Positions 45,258-56,082 of a stretch of DNA of 64,000 nucleotides are shown here, in pieces. Location: positions 1-64,000 of the forward strand of contig JAFRIV010000012.1 of NCBI GenBank assembly GCA_017432615.1, in the 5' to 3' direction. The first letter of the stretch is position 1; each line of letters opens with the position of its first letter. The notes beneath the pieces are model-generated. The model was given only the letters and a program-made list of their open reading frames with translations, was not told the origin of the DNA and made no database searches. This DNA is from Oscillospiraceae bacterium. Lineage in GTDB: Bacteria > Bacillota > Clostridia > Oscillospirales > Oscillospiraceae. A program made the translations under genes and the position numbers.

Positions 45258-46830
45258 CTCCTTTCACAACAGTATGGAAAAAGTCAAGCCCCGCATTGAC
45301 GGCATTGACCACGGCACCGGAAGTGGTGGAGGCGCCGGAGACGGAATCGATCTCATTGTCCGCCGAGGAACCGCCGGATTTGTTCAAAACGAAGGAAGAC
45401 ACCGCCTTGTTGCTGAACTGGTCTTTGAAGGCGGGTTCGGCTGCACGCATGCCCATGCCGGGCGTTTCATTCAAGGACGTAAAGGAAATGCCGTTGAGCA
45501 TGCCATCCCGATTCAATCCCAGGGCAATGCCGATGTCGCCGTCAAACCCGTCGGCGCTGGTGACGTTGAGGACATATCCGGCGATGGCGCCGTTTTCATC
45601 TTTGGCCACCAGAAACTCATTGATGGTTGAGCGGCCGAAGGTCATGCCGTAAGGCTCGCCGTCCAGCTCCTCCAGATAGAGGTCAATCTCGGGATCGGTT
45701 TCAAAATCCGCCGCCCCCGGGCATACGCTTTTATAGGAGGCGCGTTTCGCGGCACGTTTCTGCTCTTCAATGATGTCCTTCGTCATGGCATAGACGCCTG
45801 ACAGGGCGACGCCCGCAATAACAGAAATCACGGTGAGCACCAGAACCGGGCGCGGGATGCGCCGCAGAAGAGGCAGTTTTTCCTCATGAGAGCGCGCAGC
45901 GATCGCTTTGCGGGTATAGGCAAAAGGCTTGGGGATGATATACATGTCGATCAGCGGAACAAAGAGATTGCCGATGATAACCGAATAGCTGAAGGAATCG
46001 GCAGCCCCGCTTTTCAGACGGAAGAGCGCACCGAGAATACCGATCAGGATGCCGTAGACCAGTTGGCCAAGTTTGGTGACCGGAGAGGTGGCATAGTCCG
46101 AAGCCATAAAGAAAGAACCGAGAATAACGCCGCCTCCGCACAGATGGGCCAGAAGAAAATACGGATCAAAGCCCTGGCCGCCAAACAGCCCCATAAACAG
46201 GGTGAAGGAGAGCAGAATGGAGAAGCAGATCTCCCCGTGGATGATCTCCATCGCCCAGAGAAAGAGCCCACCCACCAGCAACGCGAGAATGGAACTGCCG
46301 ATGACGCCATTTGCCGTGCCGAGGAACATTTTTGTGATGTTGACAGCCCTGCCGGTCATCAAAAGAGCAACAGGAGTAGCGGAAGAGACGCTGTCAACAC
46401 TGCCGTAGGAAGTCATTGCGGTGCCGAAGGAGATCAGAAGGAAGCATCTCGCAGCGAGGGCAGGATTAACGAAGTTCTTCCCCAGACCGCCGAAGCAGCA
46501 CTTGACCACGAAAATTGCAAAGAAGGAACCGAGGATCGGGAGGAAAAGCGGAACCTGGGGGGAAAGGGTGAGGGCCAGTGTAAGCCCGGTAACAACGGCA
46601 CTGCCGTCTTTCCAGGTGTCCTCTTTGTGACAGAACCTGTCAAAAAGATACTCCGTTACAACAGCCGAGGCGACCGAGACCAGCACCACCAGAAACGCAT
46701 GGAACCCGGACACCAGGATGCCGACAACCGTGGCAGGGAGAAGGGCAGCACATACGGCGTACATGATAAACTTTGTCGTCCACCTGTCCCGCACATGGGG
46801 GGCGGCCGAAAGATTCAAAACAGGATTCAT
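45250..46830 (-). CDS. rnfDG: Fused RnfD-RnfG subunit
   Basis: 526 aa in a single frame. Residues 1 to about 318 are RnfD: membrane helices, with DSVSSATPVALL at the position of the usual S-G-A-T flavinylation site and NPALAARCFLL before it. Residues about 325-526 are RnfG: one helix (VLVLTVISVIAGVALSGVYA), then an FMN-binding domain with SADGFDGDIGIALGLN, ETPGMGMRA and the covalent FMN site SGASTTS. They are normally two genes. I see no stop or ribosome site between the two parts. Confidence 0.92.
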   Translation of the reverse strand: MNPVLNLSAAPHVRDRWTTKFIMYAVCAALLPATVVGILVSGFHAFLVVLVSVASAVVTEYLFDRFCHKEDTWKDGSAVVTGLTLALTLSPQVPLFLPILGSFFAIFVVKCCFGGLGKNFVNPALAARCFLLISFGTAMTSYGSVDSVSSATPVALLMTGRAVNITKMFLGTANGVIGSSILALLVGGLFLWAMEIIHGEICFSILLSFTLFMGLFGGQGFDPYFLLAHLCGGGVILGSFFMASDYATSPVTKLGQLVYGILIGILGALFRLKSGAADSFSYSVIIGNLFVPLIDMYIIPKPFAYTRKAIAARSHEEKLPLLRRIPRPVLVLTVISVIAGVALSGVYAMTKDIIEEQKRAAKRASYKSVCPGAADFETDPEIDLYLEELDGEPYGMTFGRSTINEFLVAKDENGAIAGYVLNVTSADGFDGDIGIALGLNRDGMLNGISFTSLNETPGMGMRAAEPAFKDQFSNKAVSSFVLNKSGGSSADNEIDSVSGASTTSGAVVNAVNAGLDFFHTVVKGDG

Positions 46831-48176
46831 TTCTTCCCTCCTGCCTGCGCGCGTTTACGAGAGAGGATCTCCGCCTTGGCACTGAGAAACATCTGTACCA
46901 GGGGGCGTTTTGCCGGACAGATAAAACCGCAGCAGCCGCAAGCGAGGCATTCCAGCCCGTAAAGCTTTTTTTCATACCGTTCCAGGTCCCCAACGGAAAC
47001 AGCGTCTGCCATCATCTGCGGAGTGAGGCCTACCGGGCAGACTGTAGCACAGCGCCCGCAGCGCAGGCAGGCCGTCATTTTGGACTGACCCACTTCGCTT
47101 TCGTCTACCGAGACCAGAGCGACGCCGCTGCTGGTCTTCTGGATGGGGACAGAGAGAGAGGAAATTGCCATGCCCATGACAGGACCGCCAACAATGGCTT
47201 TTCTGGGACAAGCGCCTTCTTTCAATCCTCCGGCAGCCTCCAGCAGTTCGGCAAAACTCATCCCGTCACGAACGATAAAATTGCCTGGGGAGGCAACAGT
47301 GTCACCCGTGAGGGTGAAAACATGACGATAAAGGGGTTCGTGATAGACAACGGCACGCTCAATGGCATAAATGGTACAGACATTCTGCACGATGCACCCA
47401 ACATCGGCCGGAAGCATGGAGGCGGGATAGAAAATGCCGGCGACGGTCTCGATCAGCATCTTCTCGCCGCCCTGGCCGTACTTGGCTTTGCAGGGAAGAA
47501 CAGAGAGCTTCTGCCTGCCCGCAACGGCCGCCTGCATGGCGGCGATGGCTTCGGGCTTGTTATCTTCGATGCAGATGACACCCCGGGCATTCGGAAACAG
47601 ACGGAGCATCAGTTCCAGACCTTCCACAATGGCGGCACTTTCGGTGCGCATCAGTTGGTCGGTACAGGTGAGATAAGGCTCGCACTCGGATCCGTTTGCA
47701 ATCAGAAATCGGATGGCGGAGGGATCTTTCGGAGAGAGTTTGACGTGTGTCGGAAATCCCGCACCGCCGAGGCCGATGATGCCTGCATCACGGATGCGCC
47801 GGAGGATCTCCTCTCCGGTGATATGTGAAACGTCATACCGGCTGTCATAAGGTTCGAGAGACGTGTAGGAACCGTCATTTTCGATGACGACACATTCTGT
47901 CATTTGTCCGTTTTGCACGCGGCGCTTCTCCACGGCTTTGACTTTGCCGGACACAGAACTGATCACATGGGCGGAAACAAATCCGTCCGCTTCCCCTATG
48001 CGCTGTCCGACAAGCACCGCATCCCCTTTCTTGACGAGGGGGAGGGCAGGTTTGCCGATATGCTGAAGAAGGGGAAAAACCATTTCCCCCTTCGCCTCAA
48101 CAGGACGCAGCGGCAGATCCCGCGTCAGAGATTTGTGCGTTTCGGGATGGATGCCGCCGCGAAAGGTGTTATTCAT
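46827..48176 (-). CDS. rnfC: Rnf complex subunit RnfC
   Basis: 449 aa NADH-side subunit. FRGGIHPETHKSLT at the start, GLGGAGFPTHVKL, ANGSECEPYLTCTD and KYGQGGEKMLI are RnfC blocks. Two ferredoxin motifs (CLRCGRCATVCP, CLACGCCGFICP) lie near the C-terminus. First gene of the Rnf-NrfA operon, with AGAGGAG before the ATG. Confidence 0.95.
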   Translation of the reverse strand: MNNTFRGGIHPETHKSLTRDLPLRPVEAKGEMVFPLLQHIGKPALPLVKKGDAVLVGQRIGEADGFVSAHVISSVSGKVKAVEKRRVQNGQMTECVVIENDGSYTSLEPYDSRYDVSHITGEEILRRIRDAGIIGLGGAGFPTHVKLSPKDPSAIRFLIANGSECEPYLTCTDQLMRTESAAIVEGLELMLRLFPNARGVICIEDNKPEAIAAMQAAVAGRQKLSVLPCKAKYGQGGEKMLIETVAGIFYPASMLPADVGCIVQNVCTIYAIERAVVYHEPLYRHVFTLTGDTVASPGNFIVRDGMSFAELLEAAGGLKEGACPRKAIVGGPVMGMAISSLSVPIQKTSSGVALVSVDESEVGQSKMTACLRCGRCATVCPVGLTPQMMADAVSVGDLERYEKKLYGLECLACGCCGFICPAKRPLVQMFLSAKAEILSRKRAQAGGKK

Positions 48177-48236
48177 TCTGTCAACTCCTCTCTGGGGTTC
48201 TGGCAGGGAAAGATTTTCGGAGCTGCCTTTTTATTT

Positions 48237-48266
48237 ATTGTATCAAATGAACCAATAGTTTGTAAA
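48237..48266 (-). promoter_or_regulatory. Promoter of the Rnf-NrfA operon
   Basis: Minus strand: TTTACA (48266-48261), 18-nt spacer, TACAAT (48242-48237), about 60 nt before rnfC. The rest of 48177-48421 is intergenic with no supported gene. Confidence 0.6.
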
Positions 48267-48421
48267 GATTAACCGAAACAGAATTGGGAAAATCACACAA
48301 AAAGGGGCGGAAACAGGGCGATGACTGCACAGTGGCATAAAAATACATACAAACCATGCGATTATACAAATCTCACGGAGAAGCCAGAAATTTTATTGAC
48401 TGTTTTGGTTATTTTTCGCAA

Positions 48422-48450
48422 TTGACAAAGCAGAAAAAGAAGATTATACT
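48422..48450 (+). promoter_or_regulatory. Promoter of the methionine-uptake locus
   Basis: Perfect TTGACA (48422-48427), 17-nt spacer, TATACT (48445-48450). It lies 33 nt before the leader-peptide ATG. Confidence 0.8.
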
Positions 48451-48483
48451 TGCCTCAACTTCCAAGAAGGGAGACAGGGTTTA

Positions 48484-48588
48484 ATGACACGCTTTGAAAA
48501 CACCGACACCATGATGATGTTCGAGATGCGCATGTGCAGCATGTGCATGATGTGGCGTGCCTGTTTTTCAAACCTGTCCGCTTCTTGA
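48484..48588 (+). CDS. Met/Cys-rich leader peptide (candidate attenuator)
   Basis: 34 codons. Met occurs at positions 1, 10, 11, 12, 15, 17, 20, 22 and 23 (9 of 34); Cys at 18, 21 and 27; one Trp at 24. GAAGGGAG precedes the ATG by about 9 nt. The peptide is too short and skewed to be an ordinary protein. It lies between a consensus promoter and an intrinsic terminator directly upstream of a methionine-type transporter. This is the arrangement of amino-acid leader peptides (trp, his, leu operons). Ribosome stalling when charged Met- or Cys-tRNA is scarce would prevent termination. An alternative is a metal-binding peptide. Confidence 0.7.
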   Translation: MTRFENTDTMMMFEMRMCSMCMMWRACFSNLSAS

Positions 48589-48615
48589 GTCCGTTTGAGC
48601 ATCATTTTGTATTTC

Positions 48616-48654
48616 AAACCGGGAAGCCTGAACAGGCGGCCCGGTTTTATTTTT
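48616..48654 (+). terminator. Leader terminator before the permuted metQ
   Basis: AAACCGGG (48616-48623) pairs with CCCGGTTT (48640-48647), with an inner GCCTG/CAGGC pair, followed by TTATTTTT. It begins 28 nt after the leader-peptide stop. The leader's own 3' coding region repeats parts of the 5' arm (GCCTG at 48559, TTTCAAACC at 48566), offering alternative pairings. Confidence 0.82.
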
Positions 48655-48671
48655 GAAAGGAGAAAATACCC

Positions 48672-49577
48672 ATGAAACGCAGCAACAAGATTTTCACCCT
48701 TGCCATCGCAGCCATTTTAGTGCTCAGCCTGAGCGCTTCCGCTTTTGCCGAGACGCTTCAGATCGGTATCCCGGATGACGGCACCAACCTCTCCCGCGGC
48801 ATTAAACTGCTGGAAACTGCCGGCCTGATCACTGTGAACCCCGAAGTAGGCTATACCCCGGAACTGGCTGATATTACCGGTTATATTTATGACATTGACG
48901 TAACGCCTGTTCAGGCAAACACCCTGCCCGGCACTCTGGGCGATTTTGCAGCAAGCGCGATCAACAGCACTTACTCGGTCCCTTACGGTCTGGTTCCCTC
49001 TCAGGGTCTGATCAGTGAAAAGCAGAGCGAAGGCAGTGACAACCCATACATCAACGTCATCGTTGCCCGCACCGCTGAGAAAGACAATGAGACCTATCAG
49101 AAGATCGTGGAAGCATACCAGACGCAGCTTGTGGCGGAATTCCTGATCGTTGTACGGAAGGAAGCGCAAATCCCGGCTTTCGATTACGATGAAAACATCA
49201 CCCTGACAGAAGAAGAGGCACAGGAGATCATTGAATATGTATCTCCCAAAGAGGGCAAGGAAGTTGTGAAAGTTGGCGTTTGCGGCGCGAGCAACGAGCA
49301 ATGGCAGGCCGTACAGAAGATCCTGGACGAAGAAAATGCCGGCATTTACATCGAACTGGTGGAATTTGACGCCTACAATCTGCCGAATGAGGCTCTGAAC
49401 GCAGGCGATATAGACCTGAATGCATTCCAGCACAAGGCCTATCTGAACAACGACGCCACGGTAAACGGGTACGACATCGTCCCCATCGGGGATACCCTCA
49501 TTGCACCGTTGACGCTGTATTCCGAGAAGTTTGATTCTCTGGACGCCCTGAAAGAGGCTGCCGGGCTGGTCGGATAA
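48672..49577 (+). CDS. Circularly permuted MetQ-type substrate-binding protein
   Basis: 301 aa. Signal peptide cut after SAFA (residue 26), no lipobox Cys. Residues about 27-160 match the C-terminal lobe of MetQ/NlpA: LQIGIPDDGTNLSRGIKLLE, DVTPVQANTLPGTL, AAINSTYS, NPYINVIVAR and QKIVEAYQ. After a linker, residues about 198-301 match the N-terminal lobe: VVKVGVCGASNEQW, PNEALNAGDIDLNAFQHKAY, GYDIVPIGDT, LTLYSEKFDSLDALKEA, then stop. The lobe order is the reverse of the normal MetQ at 54407. Probably binds methionine or a related amino acid. GAAAGGAG precedes the ATG. Confidence 0.9.
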   Translation: MKRSNKIFTLAIAAILVLSLSASAFAETLQIGIPDDGTNLSRGIKLLETAGLITVNPEVGYTPELADITGYIYDIDVTPVQANTLPGTLGDFAASAINSTYSVPYGLVPSQGLISEKQSEGSDNPYINVIVARTAEKDNETYQKIVEAYQTQLVAEFLIVVRKEAQIPAFDYDENITLTEEEAQEIIEYVSPKEGKEVVKVGVCGASNEQWQAVQKILDEENAGIYIELVEFDAYNLPNEALNAGDIDLNAFQHKAYLNNDATVNGYDIVPIGDTLIAPLTLYSEKFDSLDALKEAAGLVG

Positions 49578-49590
49578 AGACAATACTGTC

Positions 49591-49643
49591 CCGGGCGGCC
49601 GGACAGGATCGGGAAAAAGACCCTGCCTGCCGCCCGGCTTTTT
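49591..49643 (+). terminator. Terminator after the permuted metQ
   Basis: CCGGGCGG (49591-49598) pairs with CCGCCCGG (49630-49637), plus inner pairs, followed by CTTTTTCC. Partial readthrough would give more binding protein than ATPase and permease. Confidence 0.8.
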
Positions 49644-49687
49644 CCGGAAAGCAACATAGAATAAAAAACAGCGGAGCGAATCATCGG

Positions 49688-50767
49688 ATGATTGAAGTCA
49701 AAAACCTGAAAAAGACATTCCATTTGAAAACCGGAGACGTGACAGCGGTAAATGACGTGTCTTTGCACATTGAAGACGGTGCGATCTACGGCGTCATCGG
49801 ATATTCAGGGGCTGGGAAATCAAGCCTCGTGCGGTGCCTGAATCTGTTGGAGATTCCGGATGAGGGCACGATCACGATGGGGGAATACCGGAACATCGAG
49901 ATCAGAAAAGGTGTACCGTATTATGAAGGAAAGCGCATGACCGCCCAGCAGCAGAACCGGATGCGGAGAGGGATCGGAATGATCTTTCAGCATTTCAATC
50001 TGTTGGAGCGCTCAACCGTTTTTGACAATATAGCCTACCCCTTGAAGTATACCGGACGCAGCCGCGAAGAAATCAGCGCACGGGTAAAGGAACTGCTGGA
50101 ACTGGTGGATCTGCAGGACAAGATCGACGTGTTTCCCTCCCAGCTTTCCGGCGGGCAGAAACAGCGCGTGGCTATTGCAAGGGCACTGGCTGCCAACCCG
50201 AAGATTCTGCTTTCGGATGAGGCAACTTCAGCCCTGGACCCGGATGCAACGGAATCGATCCTTACGCTGCTGAAGGATCTGAACCGGAAACTTGGGATTA
50301 CCATTGTGATTATTACCCATGAGATGGCGGTCATCAAGGCTATCGCGGACCGCGTGGCGGTGATGGAGGAAGGAAGCGTTGTAGAGGAAGGAAGCGTTTA
50401 CGATATCTTTTCTGACCCGCAGGCTCCCATTACCCGGAAATTTATCGCTTCCTCGTCGCCGTTGGGGAAGATTGACAAAATGATTGCCGACAATTCCAGC
50501 ATGACTCAGGTCAAGCCGGGGGAAAAGCTGGTAAAACTGGTCTTTCAGAAGGATTGTGTGGGAGAGCATATTCTGACAAGTGTGGCACAGGAGTGCGGGG
50601 TGAATCTGAATATCATCCTTGCCAATGTGGAGTATCTGCACGGAAACCCGCTGGGCGGCACCATCGGCGTGCTGAGCGGGGATGAAAAACAGCTGGCGGA
50701 CGGCATCCGCTTTCTGGAAGAAAACCACGTAAGAGTGGAGGTGCTGAAAGATGGAAGCTTGGATTAG
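49688..50767 (+). CDS. metN: Methionine ABC transporter ATPase MetN (first copy)
   Basis: 359 aa. Walker A GYSGAGKSS, signature LSGGQKQRVAIARAL, Walker B ILLSDEATSALDPD, switch His in ITHEM. The C-terminal NIL domain (residues about 265-355) is the regulatory methionine-binding domain of MetN. It has a small insert after IEIRKG between Walker A and the Q-loop. Overlaps metI by 17 nt. Confidence 0.92.
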   Translation: MIEVKNLKKTFHLKTGDVTAVNDVSLHIEDGAIYGVIGYSGAGKSSLVRCLNLLEIPDEGTITMGEYRNIEIRKGVPYYEGKRMTAQQQNRMRRGIGMIFQHFNLLERSTVFDNIAYPLKYTGRSREEISARVKELLELVDLQDKIDVFPSQLSGGQKQRVAIARALAANPKILLSDEATSALDPDATESILTLLKDLNRKLGITIVIITHEMAVIKAIADRVAVMEEGSVVEEGSVYDIFSDPQAPITRKFIASSSPLGKIDKMIADNSSMTQVKPGEKLVKLVFQKDCVGEHILTSVAQECGVNLNIILANVEYLHGNPLGGTIGVLSGDEKQLADGIRFLEENHVRVEVLKDGSLD

Positions 50768-51458
50768 AAGCGTAGCCCCGTATCTGTACACATACCGGGC
50801 AAAGTTCTTTACAGCCTGCAGTGCAACTTTTGAGATGTTCTGGAAAGCGGGCGGCATCGCCTTTATGATCGGGCTGTGCTTCGGCATCATCCTGGTGATC
50901 ACGAAAAAAGGTGGGATCCGGCAGAATCTGATCATATATCAGATCACAAACCTGGTGATCAACGTGTTTCGCTCCATCCCATTCATCATTTTACTGATTT
51001 TTCTGATCCCGCTGACGAGGAAGGTCGTCGGGACAGCCATCAATGTAAAAGGCGCGATCCTGCCGCTGGTCTTTGGAACCGTGCCATTTTATTCCCGCCA
51101 GGTAGAGGTGGCGCTCTCCGGTGTGGAGGATGGTAAAATCGAGGCGGCACGCAGCATGGGCAGCGGAACTTTCGGGCTGATTTTCCGGGTGTACCTGCAT
51201 GAGGCACTGCCGGATCTGATCCGCGTAACAACGGTGACGGCTATCAGCCTGATCGGACTGACAACGATGGCCGGTGCAGTAGGCGCAGGGGGGATCGGTT
51301 CATTTGCCATCAACTATGGTCAGAACCAGAACCACAGTGACATTGTAAATGTGTGTGTACTGGTACTGCTGGCGGTAACCTTTGTGCTGCAGAGTATCGG
51401 GAACGGGCTGTCCAAACATACAACAAACCGCAGCCTTTTCCAGGTGCGGCACAAATAA
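50751..51458 (+). CDS. metI: Methionine ABC transporter permease MetI (first copy)
   Basis: 235 aa, five to six helices. FRSIPFIILLIFLIPLTRKVVG and EAARSMGSGTFGLIFRVYLHEALP (the coupling motif), plus GLTTMAGAVGAGGIGSFAI, match MetI. It pairs with MetN at 49688. Confidence 0.92.
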   Translation: MEAWIRSVAPYLYTYRAKFFTACSATFEMFWKAGGIAFMIGLCFGIILVITKKGGIRQNLIIYQITNLVINVFRSIPFIILLIFLIPLTRKVVGTAINVKGAILPLVFGTVPFYSRQVEVALSGVEDGKIEAARSMGSGTFGLIFRVYLHEALPDLIRVTTVTAISLIGLTTMAGAVGAGGIGSFAINYGQNQNHSDIVNVCVLVLLAVTFVLQSIGNGLSKHTTNRSLFQVRHK

Positions 51459-51476
51459 GAGGAAGGACGAGTAAAA

Positions 51477-52670
51477 ATGACCTTCAGAGAACAGATCATC
51501 CGGTATGTGGACATGCAGGACGAGACGTACCGTGCCATCGCGCTGGCAATCCATGCCAGACCGGAGGTCAGCAATTACGAGTTTTTTGCCTGCGAAACGC
51601 TTTCCGAACAACTGAAAAGGGAAGGATTTACCGTAGCTGTGGATGTGGCGGGGCATCGCACAGGGTTTGATGCGCGCTACCGCAGTGCGAAACCGGGGCC
51701 GGTGCTGGCTTTTCTGGCAGAGTATGATGCACTGCCAGGTATCGGTCACGCCTGCGGGCACAATCTCTTTGGTGCAACATCCTGCCTTGCTGCCTCTGCT
51801 TTAAAACAGGTTATCGACGAGGTCGGCGGAGAGGTTCGTATCTACGGTACACCGGGAGAAGAAGGCGGCGAGAATGGCAGTGCCAAGGGCAGTTTTGTGC
51901 GGGAAGGTTTTTTCAGGGATGTGGATGCTGCACTGTGCGTGCACCCGGGATCCGACCGGCATCAGCTGACCCAGGAAGAAATAGCCTGTGCACCTTTTCG
52001 CATCGTGTTCAAAGGAAAGGCTTCTCACGCATCTTCCGCCCCACAGGAGGGCATCAATGCACTGGACGCCATGATCCTGGTGTTCAACGCCATCGGTCTG
52101 CTGCGGCAGCAGTTGGAGAAGGATGTACGCATCCACGGTATTATTTCAAAAGGCGGGGATGCACCGAATATTATCCCGGATTATACCGAGGCGAAGTTTT
52201 TCGTACGCGCCGCAACGGTAAAGCGTATGATGGAAGTCTATCACAAGCTGGAGCGTATTACCGAAGGGGCAGCTTCACAGACGGGCTGCACCGGACTGAT
52301 GGAACCTACGCAGAGAAACATGGTGGACAACATCATCCCGACTCCGAGTTTCGATGCTGTGTACAGGAAGGAACTGGAATCACTTGGAGAGCAGTTTGAC
52401 GACCTGCCACCGAAGTCATTAGGTTCTTCAGATGTGGGGAATGTTTCCCAAGTGATTCCCGTGATTCAGCCCATGATTCGTATCAGCAAAGTGCCGGTAG
52501 CAGGTCACAGCATAGAGAAGCGGGAAGCATGCTGCGCAGAGAGCGGGCTGAGAAGCATTGGGTTGGGAGCAAAGGCCCTGGCACTGACAGCCCTGGACCT
52601 GATTGAGGACCCAGCCTTGCTGCAGCAGATCAAGATAGACCATACGCAGGCTGTGAAAGCGCAGCAGTAA
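51477..52670 (+). CDS. M20-family amidohydrolase (AbgB/aminoacylase-like)
   Basis: 397 aa dinuclear zinc hydrolase. FLAEYDALPGIGHACGHN and GTPGEEGGENGS carry metal ligands and the general base. A dimerisation domain (about residues 165-285) has FKGKASHASSAPQEGINALDA, and late VAGHSIEKR gives the last His. Closest in pattern to p-aminobenzoyl-glutamate hydrolase subunit B and N-acyl-amino-acid amidohydrolases. Placed between two methionine transporters, it probably releases Met or a related amino acid from an imported amide; this is inference. Confidence 0.88.
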   Translation: MTFREQIIRYVDMQDETYRAIALAIHARPEVSNYEFFACETLSEQLKREGFTVAVDVAGHRTGFDARYRSAKPGPVLAFLAEYDALPGIGHACGHNLFGATSCLAASALKQVIDEVGGEVRIYGTPGEEGGENGSAKGSFVREGFFRDVDAALCVHPGSDRHQLTQEEIACAPFRIVFKGKASHASSAPQEGINALDAMILVFNAIGLLRQQLEKDVRIHGIISKGGDAPNIIPDYTEAKFFVRAATVKRMMEVYHKLERITEGAASQTGCTGLMEPTQRNMVDNIIPTPSFDAVYRKELESLGEQFDDLPPKSLGSSDVGNVSQVIPVIQPMIRISKVPVAGHSIEKREACCAESGLRSIGLGAKALALTALDLIEDPALLQQIKIDHTQAVKAQQ

Positions 52671-52698
52671 AATAACAGAGCAGGAGAACCAACGCGGC

Positions 52699-53691
52699 AT
52701 GATAGAGATCAGACATCTCGGCAAGACTTTTCAGACTTCCGCAGGGGACATCGTTGCCCTTGACGACATCAACCTGACGATTGCAGACGGAGAAATATTC
52801 GGCATCATCGGCCTGTCCGGGGCGGGGAAGAGCACACTAGTGCGGTGTATCAACCTGCTGGAACGGCCCACCGCCGGAGATGTGATCATCAACGGAAAAA
52901 GTATGATGAGTCTGCCGGAGAAGGAACTGCTGCAAATGCGGCGCTCTATCGGGATGATCTTTCAGAACTTCAATTTGTTGGAACAGCGCACCGTGTTGGG
53001 CAATGTGTGCTTCCCGTTGGAGATCTCCGGTGTGGGAAAAAAGGAGGCAAAAGCCAAGGCGCTGGAATTGCTGAAGATTGTCGGGCTGGAGGAGAGAACA
53101 AGAGCATATCCTTCCCAACTGTCGGGCGGGCAGAAGCAGCGTGTGGCTATTGCAAGAGCACTTGCTACCGACCCGCAATATCTGCTGTGCGACGAGGCAA
53201 CCTCTGCTCTTGACCCTAACACCACCCGGCAGATCCTGGATCTGTTGAAGTCCATCAACCGGGATCTCGGTGTGACAATCATCGTGATCACCCACGAGAT
53301 GAAGGTGATCGACAGGATCTGTGACAGCGTGGCAGTCATCGATGCCAGCCACATTGCCGAAGTCGGGAAGGTAAGCGAAGTATTTACCGCCCCGAAAACG
53401 CAGATCGCCCGGGACCTGATCATCCCGAAGGAGAGCAACATCATCAGCACTACAGGCGGAAGAAAGCTGCGGCTGACCTTTGACGGCGAGGAGAAAACGC
53501 GGGAACCGCTGATCTCACGCATGGTGCTGGAATGCGGTGCTCCGGTGAATATTCTTTTTGCCGACACCAGGATCTATGATAATGTGGTGCACGGCCACAT
53601 GGTCATTGAACTGCCGAATGAGCTGCATGAGGCAGAAAAAATCATGTACTGGCTGAGCAGCAACAACGTGAAATGGAAGGAGGAGATATAA
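52699..53691 (+). CDS. metN: Methionine ABC transporter ATPase MetN (second copy)
   Basis: 330 aa. Walker A GLSGAGKST, LSGGQKQRVAIARAL, Walker B LLCDEATSALDPN, ITHEM. C-terminal NIL domain from about residue 250 (LRLTFDGEE). It follows the M20 gene by 28 nt with GGAG in the gap. It lacks the insert seen in the first MetN copy. Confidence 0.92.
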   Translation: MIEIRHLGKTFQTSAGDIVALDDINLTIADGEIFGIIGLSGAGKSTLVRCINLLERPTAGDVIINGKSMMSLPEKELLQMRRSIGMIFQNFNLLEQRTVLGNVCFPLEISGVGKKEAKAKALELLKIVGLEERTRAYPSQLSGGQKQRVAIARALATDPQYLLCDEATSALDPNTTRQILDLLKSINRDLGVTIIVITHEMKVIDRICDSVAVIDASHIAEVGKVSEVFTAPKTQIARDLIIPKESNIISTTGGRKLRLTFDGEEKTREPLISRMVLECGAPVNILFADTRIYDNVVHGHMVIELPNELHEAEKIMYWLSSNNVKWKEEI

Positions 53692-53693
53692 GC

Positions 53694-54377
53694 ATGCTTT
53701 CCAGTATGTTTTACAAACTGTGGGCCAACGGTCTGATCCAGATGGGCATTTGGGAAACTGTATATATGACGATGATTGCGTCCTTCTTCTCTTACCTGTT
53801 CGGACTTCCACTGGGGGTGATCCTGACAGTGACTGATAAAAACGGCATTTGTGAAAACCGGGCAGTGAACAGCATTTTGGGGTTTGCCGTCAATTTCTTT
53901 CGCAGCATTCCGTTTATCATTTTAATGGTAGCAATGCTGCCCGTAGCCAAATTTGTTGTAGGCACCTCCCTCGGGAATAAGGCTGTCATTGTCATGCTGA
54001 TCATCGGAGCCTCCCCCTATGTGGCGAGAATGGTGGAATCTTCCATCAAGGAAGTGGATGCGGGGGTCATTGAAGCGGCCCAGGCTATGGGAGCCAACAA
54101 GCTGCAGATCATCTGCAAAGTGCTCCTGCCGGAGGCCAAACCCTCTCTGATTATTGGAGCAGCCATCTCTATCGTCACCATTTTAAGCTATTCCGCCATG
54201 GCGGCTACCCTGGGCGGCACGGGATTGGGGCAGATTGCCATCATCTACGGCCACCAGAGAAACAACAGCGACATCACATGGATCTGCGTCTTTTTGACGG
54301 TGATCATAGTGCAGATTATCCAGATGGCCGGGACGGCCATCGCTCAGAAAACGGATAAGCGTATCCGGAATAAATAA
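53694..54377 (+). CDS. metI: Methionine ABC transporter permease MetI (second copy)
   Basis: 227 aa. ATG 53694 follows GGAGGAG and sits 2 nt after the metN stop. VNFFRSIPFIILMVAMLPVAK, MVESSIKEVDAGVIEAAQAMG and SAMAATLGGTGLGQIAI match MetI. Forms a transporter with the second MetN and the canonical MetQ downstream. Confidence 0.92.
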   Translation: MLSSMFYKLWANGLIQMGIWETVYMTMIASFFSYLFGLPLGVILTVTDKNGICENRAVNSILGFAVNFFRSIPFIILMVAMLPVAKFVVGTSLGNKAVIVMLIIGASPYVARMVESSIKEVDAGVIEAAQAMGANKLQIICKVLLPEAKPSLIIGAAISIVTILSYSAMAATLGGTGLGQIAIIYGHQRNNSDITWICVFLTVIIVQIIQMAGTAIAQKTDKRIRNK

Positions 54378-54406
54378 AGGAATTATTTTTTAAGGAGGAT
54401 AAACCC

Positions 54407-55225
54407 ATGAAAAAGACTCTTGCACTGATCCTTGCACTCATTCTCGCACTGTCCCTCATCCCAGCAGCGTTTGCCGCGGATGCCGATAAGACCATTACGG
54501 TAGGCGCCAGTGCCACCCCGCATGCTGAGATCCTGGAAGCGGTAAAAGATACATTGGCCGCAGAAGGATATGAGCTGAAGATCGTGATCTATGACGACTA
54601 TGTGCTGCCGAATACCGCCCTGGAAGAGGGAGACCTGGATGCCAACTACTTCCAGCATACCCCATATCTCAACTACTTCAATGAAGCGGAAGGAACCCAT
54701 ATCGTTCCCGCTGCGCTTGTGCACTATGAACCCTTCGGCATTTACAGCGAGAGCATCACAGACCTGAAAGATCTGGAAAAGGGAGCTACCATTGTGATCC
54801 CGGCAGACGACAGTAATGAGACCCGCGCTCTGCTGCTTCTCCAGCAGGAAGGCCTCATTAAGATTGAAGAAGGCTACACCGTAGAAACCGGCATTACTCA
54901 TCTTGACATTGCCGACGATGGCGGGTTTAAAATCGTTCCTGTTCAGGCAGACACCGTGCCAGCGCAGCTGAAAAACGGAGACAAGGGCACAATAGCCGTT
55001 ATCAACGGCAACTACGCCCTGGAAGCGGGTTATACCTCTGCCGATGCTATTGCTCTGGAGGATGCTTCCGGTGATGCTGCCCAATACTATGCCAATCTGA
55101 TCGGCGTGCGGGAAGGCGAAGAAAACAGCGAGAAAACCCAGGCACTGGTTAAGGCTCTTCTGACGGATGAAGTAAAGACCTTTATCGAAGAGACCTATAA
55201 CGGCTCTGTAGTGGCAGTATTCTGA
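54407..55225 (+). CDS. metQ: Canonical MetQ-type methionine-binding protein
   Basis: 272 aa. Signal peptide cut after AAFA (residue 23), no lipobox Cys. The N-lobe (about 27-125: ITVGASATPHAEILEAV, PNTALEEGDLDANYFQH, GIYSESITDLKDL) precedes the C-lobe (about 126-272: ATIVIPADDSNETRALLLLQ, PVQADTVPAQL, AVINGNYALEAG, ALVKALLTDEVKTF). This is the normal NlpA/MetQ order and serves as the in-window control for the permuted protein at 48672. AAGGAGGA precedes the ATG. Confidence 0.93.
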   Translation: MKKTLALILALILALSLIPAAFAADADKTITVGASATPHAEILEAVKDTLAAEGYELKIVIYDDYVLPNTALEEGDLDANYFQHTPYLNYFNEAEGTHIVPAALVHYEPFGIYSESITDLKDLEKGATIVIPADDSNETRALLLLQQEGLIKIEEGYTVETGITHLDIADDGGFKIVPVQADTVPAQLKNGDKGTIAVINGNYALEAGYTSADAIALEDASGDAAQYYANLIGVREGEENSEKTQALVKALLTDEVKTFIEETYNGSVVAVF

Positions 55226-55256
55226 TCGACCTACAGGAAAACAGCGGATTTTAACA

Positions 55257-55292
55257 GGCGGCGGACCGGTACGGTCCGTCGCCCTTTCTGTT
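55257..55292 (+). terminator. Terminator of the methionine-uptake operon
   Basis: A 12-bp stem (GGCGGCGGACCG with CGGTCCGTCGCC, 55257-55283) followed by TTTCTGTTT. Confidence 0.88.
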
Positions 55293-55319
55293 TACAAATG
55301 AAGGGAAGTATGATAAACT
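55291..55319 (+). promoter_or_regulatory. Promoter close to the start of the next gene
   Basis: TTTACA (55291-55296), 17-nt spacer, TAAACT (55314-55319). The start codon at 55330 is only 11 nt past the -10 box, so the mRNA may be leaderless. Confidence 0.45.
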
Positions 55320-55329
55320 CACCCTTGTT

Positions 55330-56082
55330 ATGAAGAATAAAAAACGCTGGGTCAACTTCATACTGTTTGTTGTGCCGGCAGCAGGGCTTGCCGTCGGGGC
55401 TAGGCCTGCTATTGGGTTTCTGGAAGGGTTTCTGAGCGACGGAGAACCAAAGCGGGTCACTATTGCTGCGGCAGTACTCCTTTACGGCATGGCGGCAATT
55501 GTAGTGCTGACGGCGATTTCCGGCTTTCTGGCAGTTGCACGCGGACCGGTAGCAGGCACCTCGGTGCTGCTGGTGCTGATTGCAGCCCTCTGCGGGGCTG
55601 GGCTTTACTTCGGTGTACGGAACATGCCGGTCGGAGAAGCTGAGCCCACTGGAACGCCTCGCCCGACGGTGACGCCTCCCGAGGTGACGATCGACAACAC
55701 GATCAAAAGCAACGGCAACCCGGAAACAGGCACCGTTTTCTACAGCCGTTATGGGGAGGGGCCGAGTACGCTGATCGTTGAAAATAACAGTCAGTCGGAT
55801 ATCTGTTTTCGGATGAGCGACCGGCATGATCTGCTGGTGATGGTGTTTTATGTTCGCGCCGGAGAGACGGGAGAATTCAAAGCACCTATGGGAACGTATG
55901 AATTTCGCTGCGTGACAGGCAAGATCTGGGAGAATGAGAAGACCTATTTCGGTGAGCGGTCATACTTCAGGAAGCTTGCCGAACAGGTGGTGATCTACCA
56001 CGGCAGCACAGCAAAGATCACGTTAAGTCCCGGACTCCCGGAAATGAAGATTATCAAACAGCAGGAATATGAAGCAATATAG
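55330..56082 (+). CDS. Membrane protein with extracytoplasmic C-terminal domain, unknown
   Basis: 250 aa. Three hydrophobic helices (residues about 9-28, 42-64, 75-95), a Pro/Thr linker (GTPRPTVTPPEVT), then a beta-rich domain of about 130 residues (IVENNSQSDICFRMSD, FYVRAGETGEFKAPMGTYEF). The tail resembles small beta-sandwich domains that coat or bind ligands. No known family recognised. No clear ribosome site. Confidence 0.7.
   Translation: MKNKKRWVNFILFVVPAAGLAVGARPAIGFLEGFLSDGEPKRVTIAAAVLLYGMAAIVVLTAISGFLAVARGPVAGTSVLLVLIAALCGAGLYFGVRNMPVGEAEPTGTPRPTVTPPEVTIDNTIKSNGNPETGTVFYSRYGEGPSTLIVENNSQSDICFRMSDRHDLLVMVFYVRAGETGEFKAPMGTYEFRCVTGKIWENEKTYFGERSYFRKLAEQVVIYHGSTAKITLSPGLPEMKIIKQQEYEAI

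Follow-up and report, generated by a model that had tools for sequence, protein, structure and literature searches.

A putative methionine-codon leader attenuator upstream of a methionine importer operon in an Oscillospiraceae bacterium, with Met-rich leaders at related loci of Clostridia and Spirochaetes

Methionine control in the Bacillota is usually described via SAM riboswitches, T-boxes and a few regulators; what, then, controls a methionine importer operon in front of which neither RNA element can be recognized? We analyzed such a locus in a 64,000-nucleotide stretch of an Oscillospiraceae genome (contig JAFRIV010000012.1 of assembly GCA_017432615.1; hereafter the window), where a Met- and Cys-rich short open reading frame (ORF) and an intrinsic terminator lie between a promoter and a set of importer genes (Table 1). 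Our analysis indicates that this region, 48422-48671, is probably a ribosome-mediated transcription attenuator.

The sequence-only reading of this DNA had seen neither a SAM riboswitch nor a T-box signature, and our searches agree with it: five tRNAs were the sole Rfam matches in the window at the gathering score, and positions 48181-48720 stayed without any match when the limit was relaxed to E = 1. A SAM riboswitch (RF00162) or T-box (RF00230) at the leader site was therefore rejected, as no covariance model matched there. Either element can sit in the leader's place, and a SAM riboswitch does so in L029, a Pyramidobacter MAG, where it (942-1033; 46.8 bits vs a cut-off of 44.4) precedes metN, metI and a permuted metQ, an operon equivalent to that of the window. 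This was the one match over 20 of the 38 leaderless loci described below, and Rfam gave no match over 18 leader-bearing loci; a search over 20 loci (including L006, L012 and L016) returned nothing but L070's own SAM riboswitch. Reading by eye, we also noted a terminator-like hairpin after the L029 riboswitch. The window's own genome (about 87% complete) has one SAM riboswitch that we could find, upstream of a metK-like gene which we take to be metK, its product beginning like methionine adenosyltransferase, and two sub-threshold T-boxes elsewhere. Several leader copies in this genome were considered and rejected, since only the window locus matched at E ≤ 10.

Anatomy of the leader locus and its operon

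The layout proposed from the sequence alone, a consensus promoter followed by a 34-codon ORF with a ribosome site, 9 Met and 3 Cys, and then by a terminator between the ORF's stop and the transporter, was borne out in each of its parts. The promoter is the top one of 10 promoter-like sites scanned in 46000-56000, and a similarly spaced promoter is also present in L001-L003, the closest relatives. The terminator lies 27 nt past the leader stop and none of 40 shuffles was equally good; a simple terminator scan did not list it. The leader ORF has the most internal Met (8, the runner-up having 6) among the 330 ATG ORFs of 20-60 amino acids in the window, a richness with a chance probability of about 9e-7 per ORF, or 3e-4 after multiplication by 330, and none of 100 Markov windows contained an ORF with 8 internal Met (one reached 7). 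With a Met content so far above random expectation, a chance ORF was rejected. Against L001-L003, the window leader shows an in-frame gap of 3 nt with the Met codons conserved.

Table 1. Features of the leader locus and the importer genes (positions in the window)
Feature	Positions	Strand	Remark
Sigma-70-type promoter TTGACA-17-TATACT	48422..48450	+	11/12 consensus matches
Shine-Dalgarno-like AAGGGAG of leader ORF	48467..48473	+	read from sequence
Met/Cys-rich leader ORF, MTRFENTDTMMMFEMRMCSMCMMWRACFSNLSAS	48484..48588	+	ATG start, 34 codons, 9 Met and 3 Cys
Candidate antiterminator strand GCUUCUUG, end of leader ORF	48580..48587	+	partner 48620-48627; ribosome-masked leader fold
Intrinsic terminator AAACCGGGAAGCCT-GAAC-AGGCGGCCCGGTTT + TATTTTT	48616..48654	+	14-nt arms, GAAC loop
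metQ1, circularly permuted methionine-binding protein, NlpA/MetQ family	48672..49577	+	no lipobox Cys seen
metN1, importer ATPase	49688..50767	+	
metI1, importer permease	50751..51458	+	
M20-family amidohydrolase	51477..52670	+	
metN2	52699..53691	+	
metI2	53673..54377	+	
metQ2, ordinary (unpermuted) MetQ	54407..55225	+	
Terminator-like hairpin after last gene	55257..55283	+	12 pairs; from a scan whose terminator-like sites as a set were not above chance

The genes downstream of the leader, metQ1-metN1-metI1-M20-metN2-metI2-metQ2, share one strand and from their spacing form an apparent single Met-importer operon. Between 48672 and 55225, the M20 amidohydrolase is flanked by two MetNI pairs and by two MetQ proteins, of which one is permuted and the other ordinary, a layout that suggests the import of N-acylated sulfur amino acids. 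The gap between metQ1 and metN1 holds, at 49591-49642, a long inverted repeat that is GC-rich and runs into T5; it may be a partial terminator, reducing the transporter relative to the binding protein.

MetQ1 itself is circularly permuted: its residues 198-296 match residues 32-130 of Escherichia coli MetQ and its residues 30-156 match 132-257 (phmmer), and the permutation is also seen by Pfam and by blastp against the window's ordinary MetQ2. The same blastp test, applied to the window and to 69 loci, which are contigs retrieved by MetQ1 homology, classed the window MetQ1 and 35 of the 69 as permuted, 32 as ordinary and 2 as unclear. Loci with a permuted metQ are mostly labelled Clostridia or Spirochaetales, with one Coriobacteriales and one Pyramidobacter MAG, and their occurrence is patchy (matches in 11 of 61 genomes of the genus at E ≤ 1e-30, and in 1 of 295 genomes of the order at E ≤ 1e-40). 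No description of a natural circular permutation of MetQ was found in the literature searched. In several loci (L001, L002, L003, L005, L010, L011, L013, L014 and L015) a second short ORF, often ending in GGxxxRM before a stop or Pro (the DNA reading near CGAATG), lies between the leader terminator and metQ; the same kind of ORF occurs upstream of metQ in L012, L022, L036 and L037 and is absent from the window. It could be a second regulatory upstream ORF or an RNA motif.

Met-rich leaders of Clostridia and Spirochaetes

Conservation of Met-rich ORFs upstream of metQ and metN homologues had been named as the point on which the sequence-only reading would stand or fall, and our survey found it: a Met-rich leader lies upstream of metQ or metN in 31 of the 69 homologous loci. 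These comprise a first group (L001, L002, L003, L005, L010, L011, L013, L014 and L015), loci labelled Spirochaetes (L025, L026, L028, L030, L031, L033 and L034), L027 and L032, and a further set (L050, L054-L058, L060, L062-L065, L067 and L069), with L016 as a borderline extra case. Cultured bacteria are among the leader carriers: Oscillospiraceae bacterium CE91-St43 (L057), Pseudoflavonifractor Marseille-P3106 (L058) and Bullifex porci (L025). Where the operon is an ordinary metNIQ (13 loci), metN is the gene that follows the leader, and metQ lies some 2 kb away. No leader was seen in the other 38 loci, in some of which metQ is not first or the upstream DNA is missing; most of the 15 Treponema-type loci (L038-L049 and L051-L053) showed none though the start of the operon is visible, and neither did the ordinary metNIQ loci L061 and L066 in three separate searches. 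Seven Met columns, the start included, are invariant across 16 aligned clostridial leaders. Over their first 20 codons, 13 leaders have a pN/pS ratio of 0.20; the ratio is higher elsewhere (0.62 in L001-L003; 0.97 for L026/L030).

Profile searches, which are blind to neighboring genes, extended this set. Of 41 genomes, 17 had exactly one strong match to profile A1, which had been built from the leaders of those same 17 genomes. The profile led to L099, L150 and L151, all upstream of metN (in L099, metN was identified by reading the printed DNA, the automatic ORF call lying in another frame). Within the window's own order, 58 of 394 sampled genomes matched at E ≤ 0.5; the two that were inspected (G000 and G282) are real, and in the other 56 most matches cover just the second half of the profile. 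At E ≤ 1e-4, 1 of 394 genomes in the order of G612 and 11 of 400 in its family matched; the leader family is therefore patchy, and on these matches we rejected its presence throughout the taxon. Met-rich short ORFs elsewhere also passed the leader filter, namely minus-strand ORFs in L025, L050 and L054, and at position 835 of L025, a Bullifex locus, an extra one (MYSFRFYMCMSMMMSLDKTEGFSCL) lies upstream of metN besides the leader before metQ.

In the order of Bullifex porci, profile A7 matched 56 of 139 genomes at E ≤ 0.1. Twenty-eight of these matches were inspected as retrieved loci (L152-L179), 23 of them new and five (L152-L155 and L157) repeating L030, L031, L026, L034 and L033, and all 28 gave a leader with an MPxxA- or CPxxA-like ending, an ending shared partly by construction because the finder required it. 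For L154 and L162 this finder settled on a start inside the leader. In 26 of the 28 loci the leader is followed by a gene that we read as an ordinary or a permuted metQ, the other two loci ending too soon, and the profile search behind these loci did not select for met genes. In one genome, G356, one leader precedes each of two metQ genes (L026 and L089). The Spirochaete form is more compact than the clostridial one: its codons ATGATGATGCCC and GGGCAT form a hairpin over the stop codon, with a T-rich stretch behind it, and an automatic terminator search placed this hairpin at the stop codon in 6 of 7 leaders, missing L030. The hairpin would presumably act as a terminator, its stem being too invariant for a test of compensatory changes and its T tract imperfect. 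We claim no homology between the clostridial and Spirochaete leaders, and many of the relatives are metagenome assemblies.

The leaders also differ in Cys. Cys makes up 12.6% of ten clostridial leaders located directly before a permuted metQ and 1.6% of sixteen leaders before metN of the metNIQ type (13 with an ordinary metQ by blastp and three untyped), a contrast with a Mann-Whitney p of 3e-5 that is overstated because the leader sequences are related. This comparison covers neither L027 and L032, with 2 and 5 Cys, nor the Spirochaete leaders, which contain 0-3 Cys and, in the permuted locus L034, none.

Terminator and antiterminator pairing

All 25 clostridial leaders that were folded, the window's and those of 24 loci, have an intrinsic terminator 17-43 nt downstream of the stop, and 3 of 1000 shuffles, all three for L027, were as good. 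Pairs were counted in 12 of the 16 aligned leaders of the ordinary-metNIQ type, labelled Oscillospiraceae, Pseudoflavonifractor, Ruminococcaceae or Eubacteriales; L057, L058, L099 and L151 were omitted as the aligner misplaced their shorter stem. Both structures show compensatory changes in these relatives, a covariation that the sequence-only reading had suggested looking for. In the terminator, 156 of 156 cells are paired and 15 are double-change cells (0 of 500 shuffles), further pair types not going beyond chance (138 of 500 shuffles as good). In the antiterminator, formed by the 5′ terminator arm and the last leader codons, 94.7% of 131 cells are paired (16 of 500 shuffles), with 6 double-change cells (13 of 500); the pairs with a double change (3 of 500) and the covariation score (4 of 500) likewise stand out, and further pair types are again not beyond chance (387 of 500 as good). 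Sliding the partner by 1-3 columns lowers the paired share to 19-68% (at most 67.9%). As read from L064, the distance from the first nucleotide of the last regular Met codon to this partner is about 14 nt, so that the partner would be open while a ribosome waits at Met and hidden beneath a ribosome at the stop.

For the window, competing structures had been read from repeats of the terminator's 5′ arm in the leader ORF, GCCTG and TTTCAAACC. These repeats are present, but the alternative structure most like that of the relatives is predicted to join the last part of the leader ORF (48580-48587) to the 5′ arm of the terminator (48620-48627), and the direct repeats were dropped as the antiterminator. 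When a ribosome is placed at the stop, the predicted pairing of the window terminator is 0.98; moving the ribosome to each of the eight internal Met codons gives 0.48, 0.19, 0.43, 0.91, 0.85, 0.11, 0.91 and 0.92. Under equilibrium folding, just 5 of the 25 leaders (the window, L005, L010, L014 and L015) have a Met codon at which the terminator falls below 0.5, and in L001-L003 and the 13 ordinary-metNIQ leaders it stays at 0.73 or above, so that in all but those 5 leaders regulation must rest on folding order. The pairing energy between the terminator arm and upstream RNA hardly beats shuffles (z below 0 in 19 of 25, median z -0.38; for the window z -0.91, with 31 of 200 shuffles as low).

Attenuation, its alternatives and its precedents

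From this layout we infer that the leader is translated, that ribosomes stall on it, and that Met, perhaps with Cys, is the signal, its shortage favoring readthrough. RNA polymerase would start downstream of 48422-48450 and a ribosome would start on the leader ORF. With ample Met-tRNA, and perhaps Cys-tRNA, the ribosome would reach the stop and cover the last leader codons, the hairpin at 48616-48654 would form and transcription would end. With charged tRNA short, the ribosome would stall at Met (or Cys) codons, and the last leader codons, left free, would pair with the terminator's 5′ arm, letting polymerase read into metQ-metN-metI-M20-metN-metI-metQ. Ribosome-mediated attenuation, as it had been put forward from the sequence, is thus upheld in its layout, through conservation, terminator and compensatory changes; the response to Met lies outside that support.

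Three other explanations bear on the same observations. The nascent peptide could itself be the sensor, with Met, SAM or another ligand arresting the ribosome in the manner of TnaC or Erm, and Met and Cys counting as residues rather than codons. The conserved spacing of the Met positions, the conserved SMMMPxxA at the end of the Spirochaete leaders and the Cys residues that accompany Met would all suit such a sensor; however, leaders of different groups share little besides Met and Cys, the conserved Spirochaete end coincides with an RNA hairpin, and a codon counter needs fewer assumptions to account for the composition, so that we regard a peptide sensor as unlikely. Control of translation or of Rho-dependent termination, for example by coupling through the Shine-Dalgarno (SD) sequence rather than through the intrinsic terminator, would draw on the complementarity between the leader's SD region and later leader codons: the metNIQ group has GGAGGCGCGC against GCGCGCCTCC, the window has CAAGAAG against CTTCTTG, and Spirochaetes have GGAGGACATC against GATGTCCTCC, GGAGAA against TTCTCC and GAGGTAA against TTACCTC. 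Among 28 clostridial leaders 14 have a longer complementary stretch than shuffles do (p ≤ 0.05), as have 14 among 31 Spirochaete leaders, but it resembles the 1:2 pairing that a classical attenuator is expected to have, and with strong terminators in all folded clostridial leaders we hold this kind of control to be very improbable.

Met- and Cys-rich peptides can bind copper, and the leader might accordingly encode a functional micropeptide (metal binding or redox) or a metal-responsive upstream ORF whose place before a Met importer is incidental. The few Met-rich short ORFs that passed the same filter elsewhere (minus strand, in L025, L050 and L054) point in this direction, and the position of the 31 leader loci says little here because these loci were fetched by their metQ. 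Against it, the neighbor-blind peptide and profile searches also reach metQ or metN (L089, L099, L150, L151 and the 26 Spirochaete loci), the 17 genomes with one strong A1 match have no second, and Cys is scarce in the metNIQ group, unlike what a metal site predicts; we give the micropeptide marginally less credence even than SD or Rho control.

Ribosome-mediated attenuation is a known mechanism, as in the amino-acid leader-peptide attenuators of the trpL, hisL and ilvL type. These have in common with the locus studied here a promoter, a codon-rich short ORF, a terminator and an alternative pairing between the leader end and the 5′ arm; they differ in that the codons here are Met and partly Cys, and in that the target here is an importer operon, in Clostridia and Spirochaetes. 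A 2010 survey of premature terminators includes a His leader peptide of hisS/hisZ in Bacilli as well as a T-box ahead of a methionine transporter, a Met leader peptide being unmentioned in the accessible part of its text (PMC2965389). The closest precedent found is metL of Streptomyces lividans TK24, which the available sections of a 2021 report describe as a short Met- and Cys-containing leader before metNIQ and propose as an attenuator, its termination being unclear (PMC8079986). The sequence-only reading, which knew of no established Met leader-peptide attenuator in this group, is to be qualified by metL as an earlier proposal. According to those sections, metL is a single actinobacterial candidate with a leaderless transcript, no typical intrinsic terminator reported, and Met and Cys near its end only; we set it apart by this description and not by homology (PMC8079986). 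Cys-rich leader ORFs of actinobacterial cys operons, reported in 2005, are alike in that a short ORF ahead of sulfur genes has runs of sulfur amino-acid codons towards its end, and differ, as far as the accessible text goes, in that they contain Cys only and have no conserved terminator hairpin in Mycobacterium; the same text finds no conserved RNA structures before methionine operons in Actinobacteria (PMC1262725). No description of the clostridial and Spirochaete Met-leader families was found in the literature searched, which mostly excluded subscription papers, and an earlier report is possible.

The Met leaders are thus probably an unrecognized family of Met-responsive, partly Cys-responsive, attenuators, in which the mechanism is known and the specificity and range are new. 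More tentatively, and as a conjecture that we rate as plausible though somewhat short of probable, an unnamed and widespread class of Met-codon attenuators may control the Met importers of two or more phyla, at the position that SAM riboswitches occupy in other lineages. In this conjecture, the Clostridia would add a Cys code with the permuted MetQ, revealing transport of both sulfur amino acids or of their N-acyl forms (the M20 amidohydrolase being in the operon), and the Spirochaete form would be a collapsed one whose Met codons are the 5′ arm of a hairpin ending at the stop codon.

These findings point to a leader peptide at the importer as the means by which some Clostridia and Spirochaetes of the gut would gauge charged tRNA-Met. 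As the importer in the window's genome has the leader while metK keeps a SAM riboswitch, uptake and SAM synthesis would follow different signals, and the text of a leader may hint at the substrates of its transporter, Met alone or Met with Cys.
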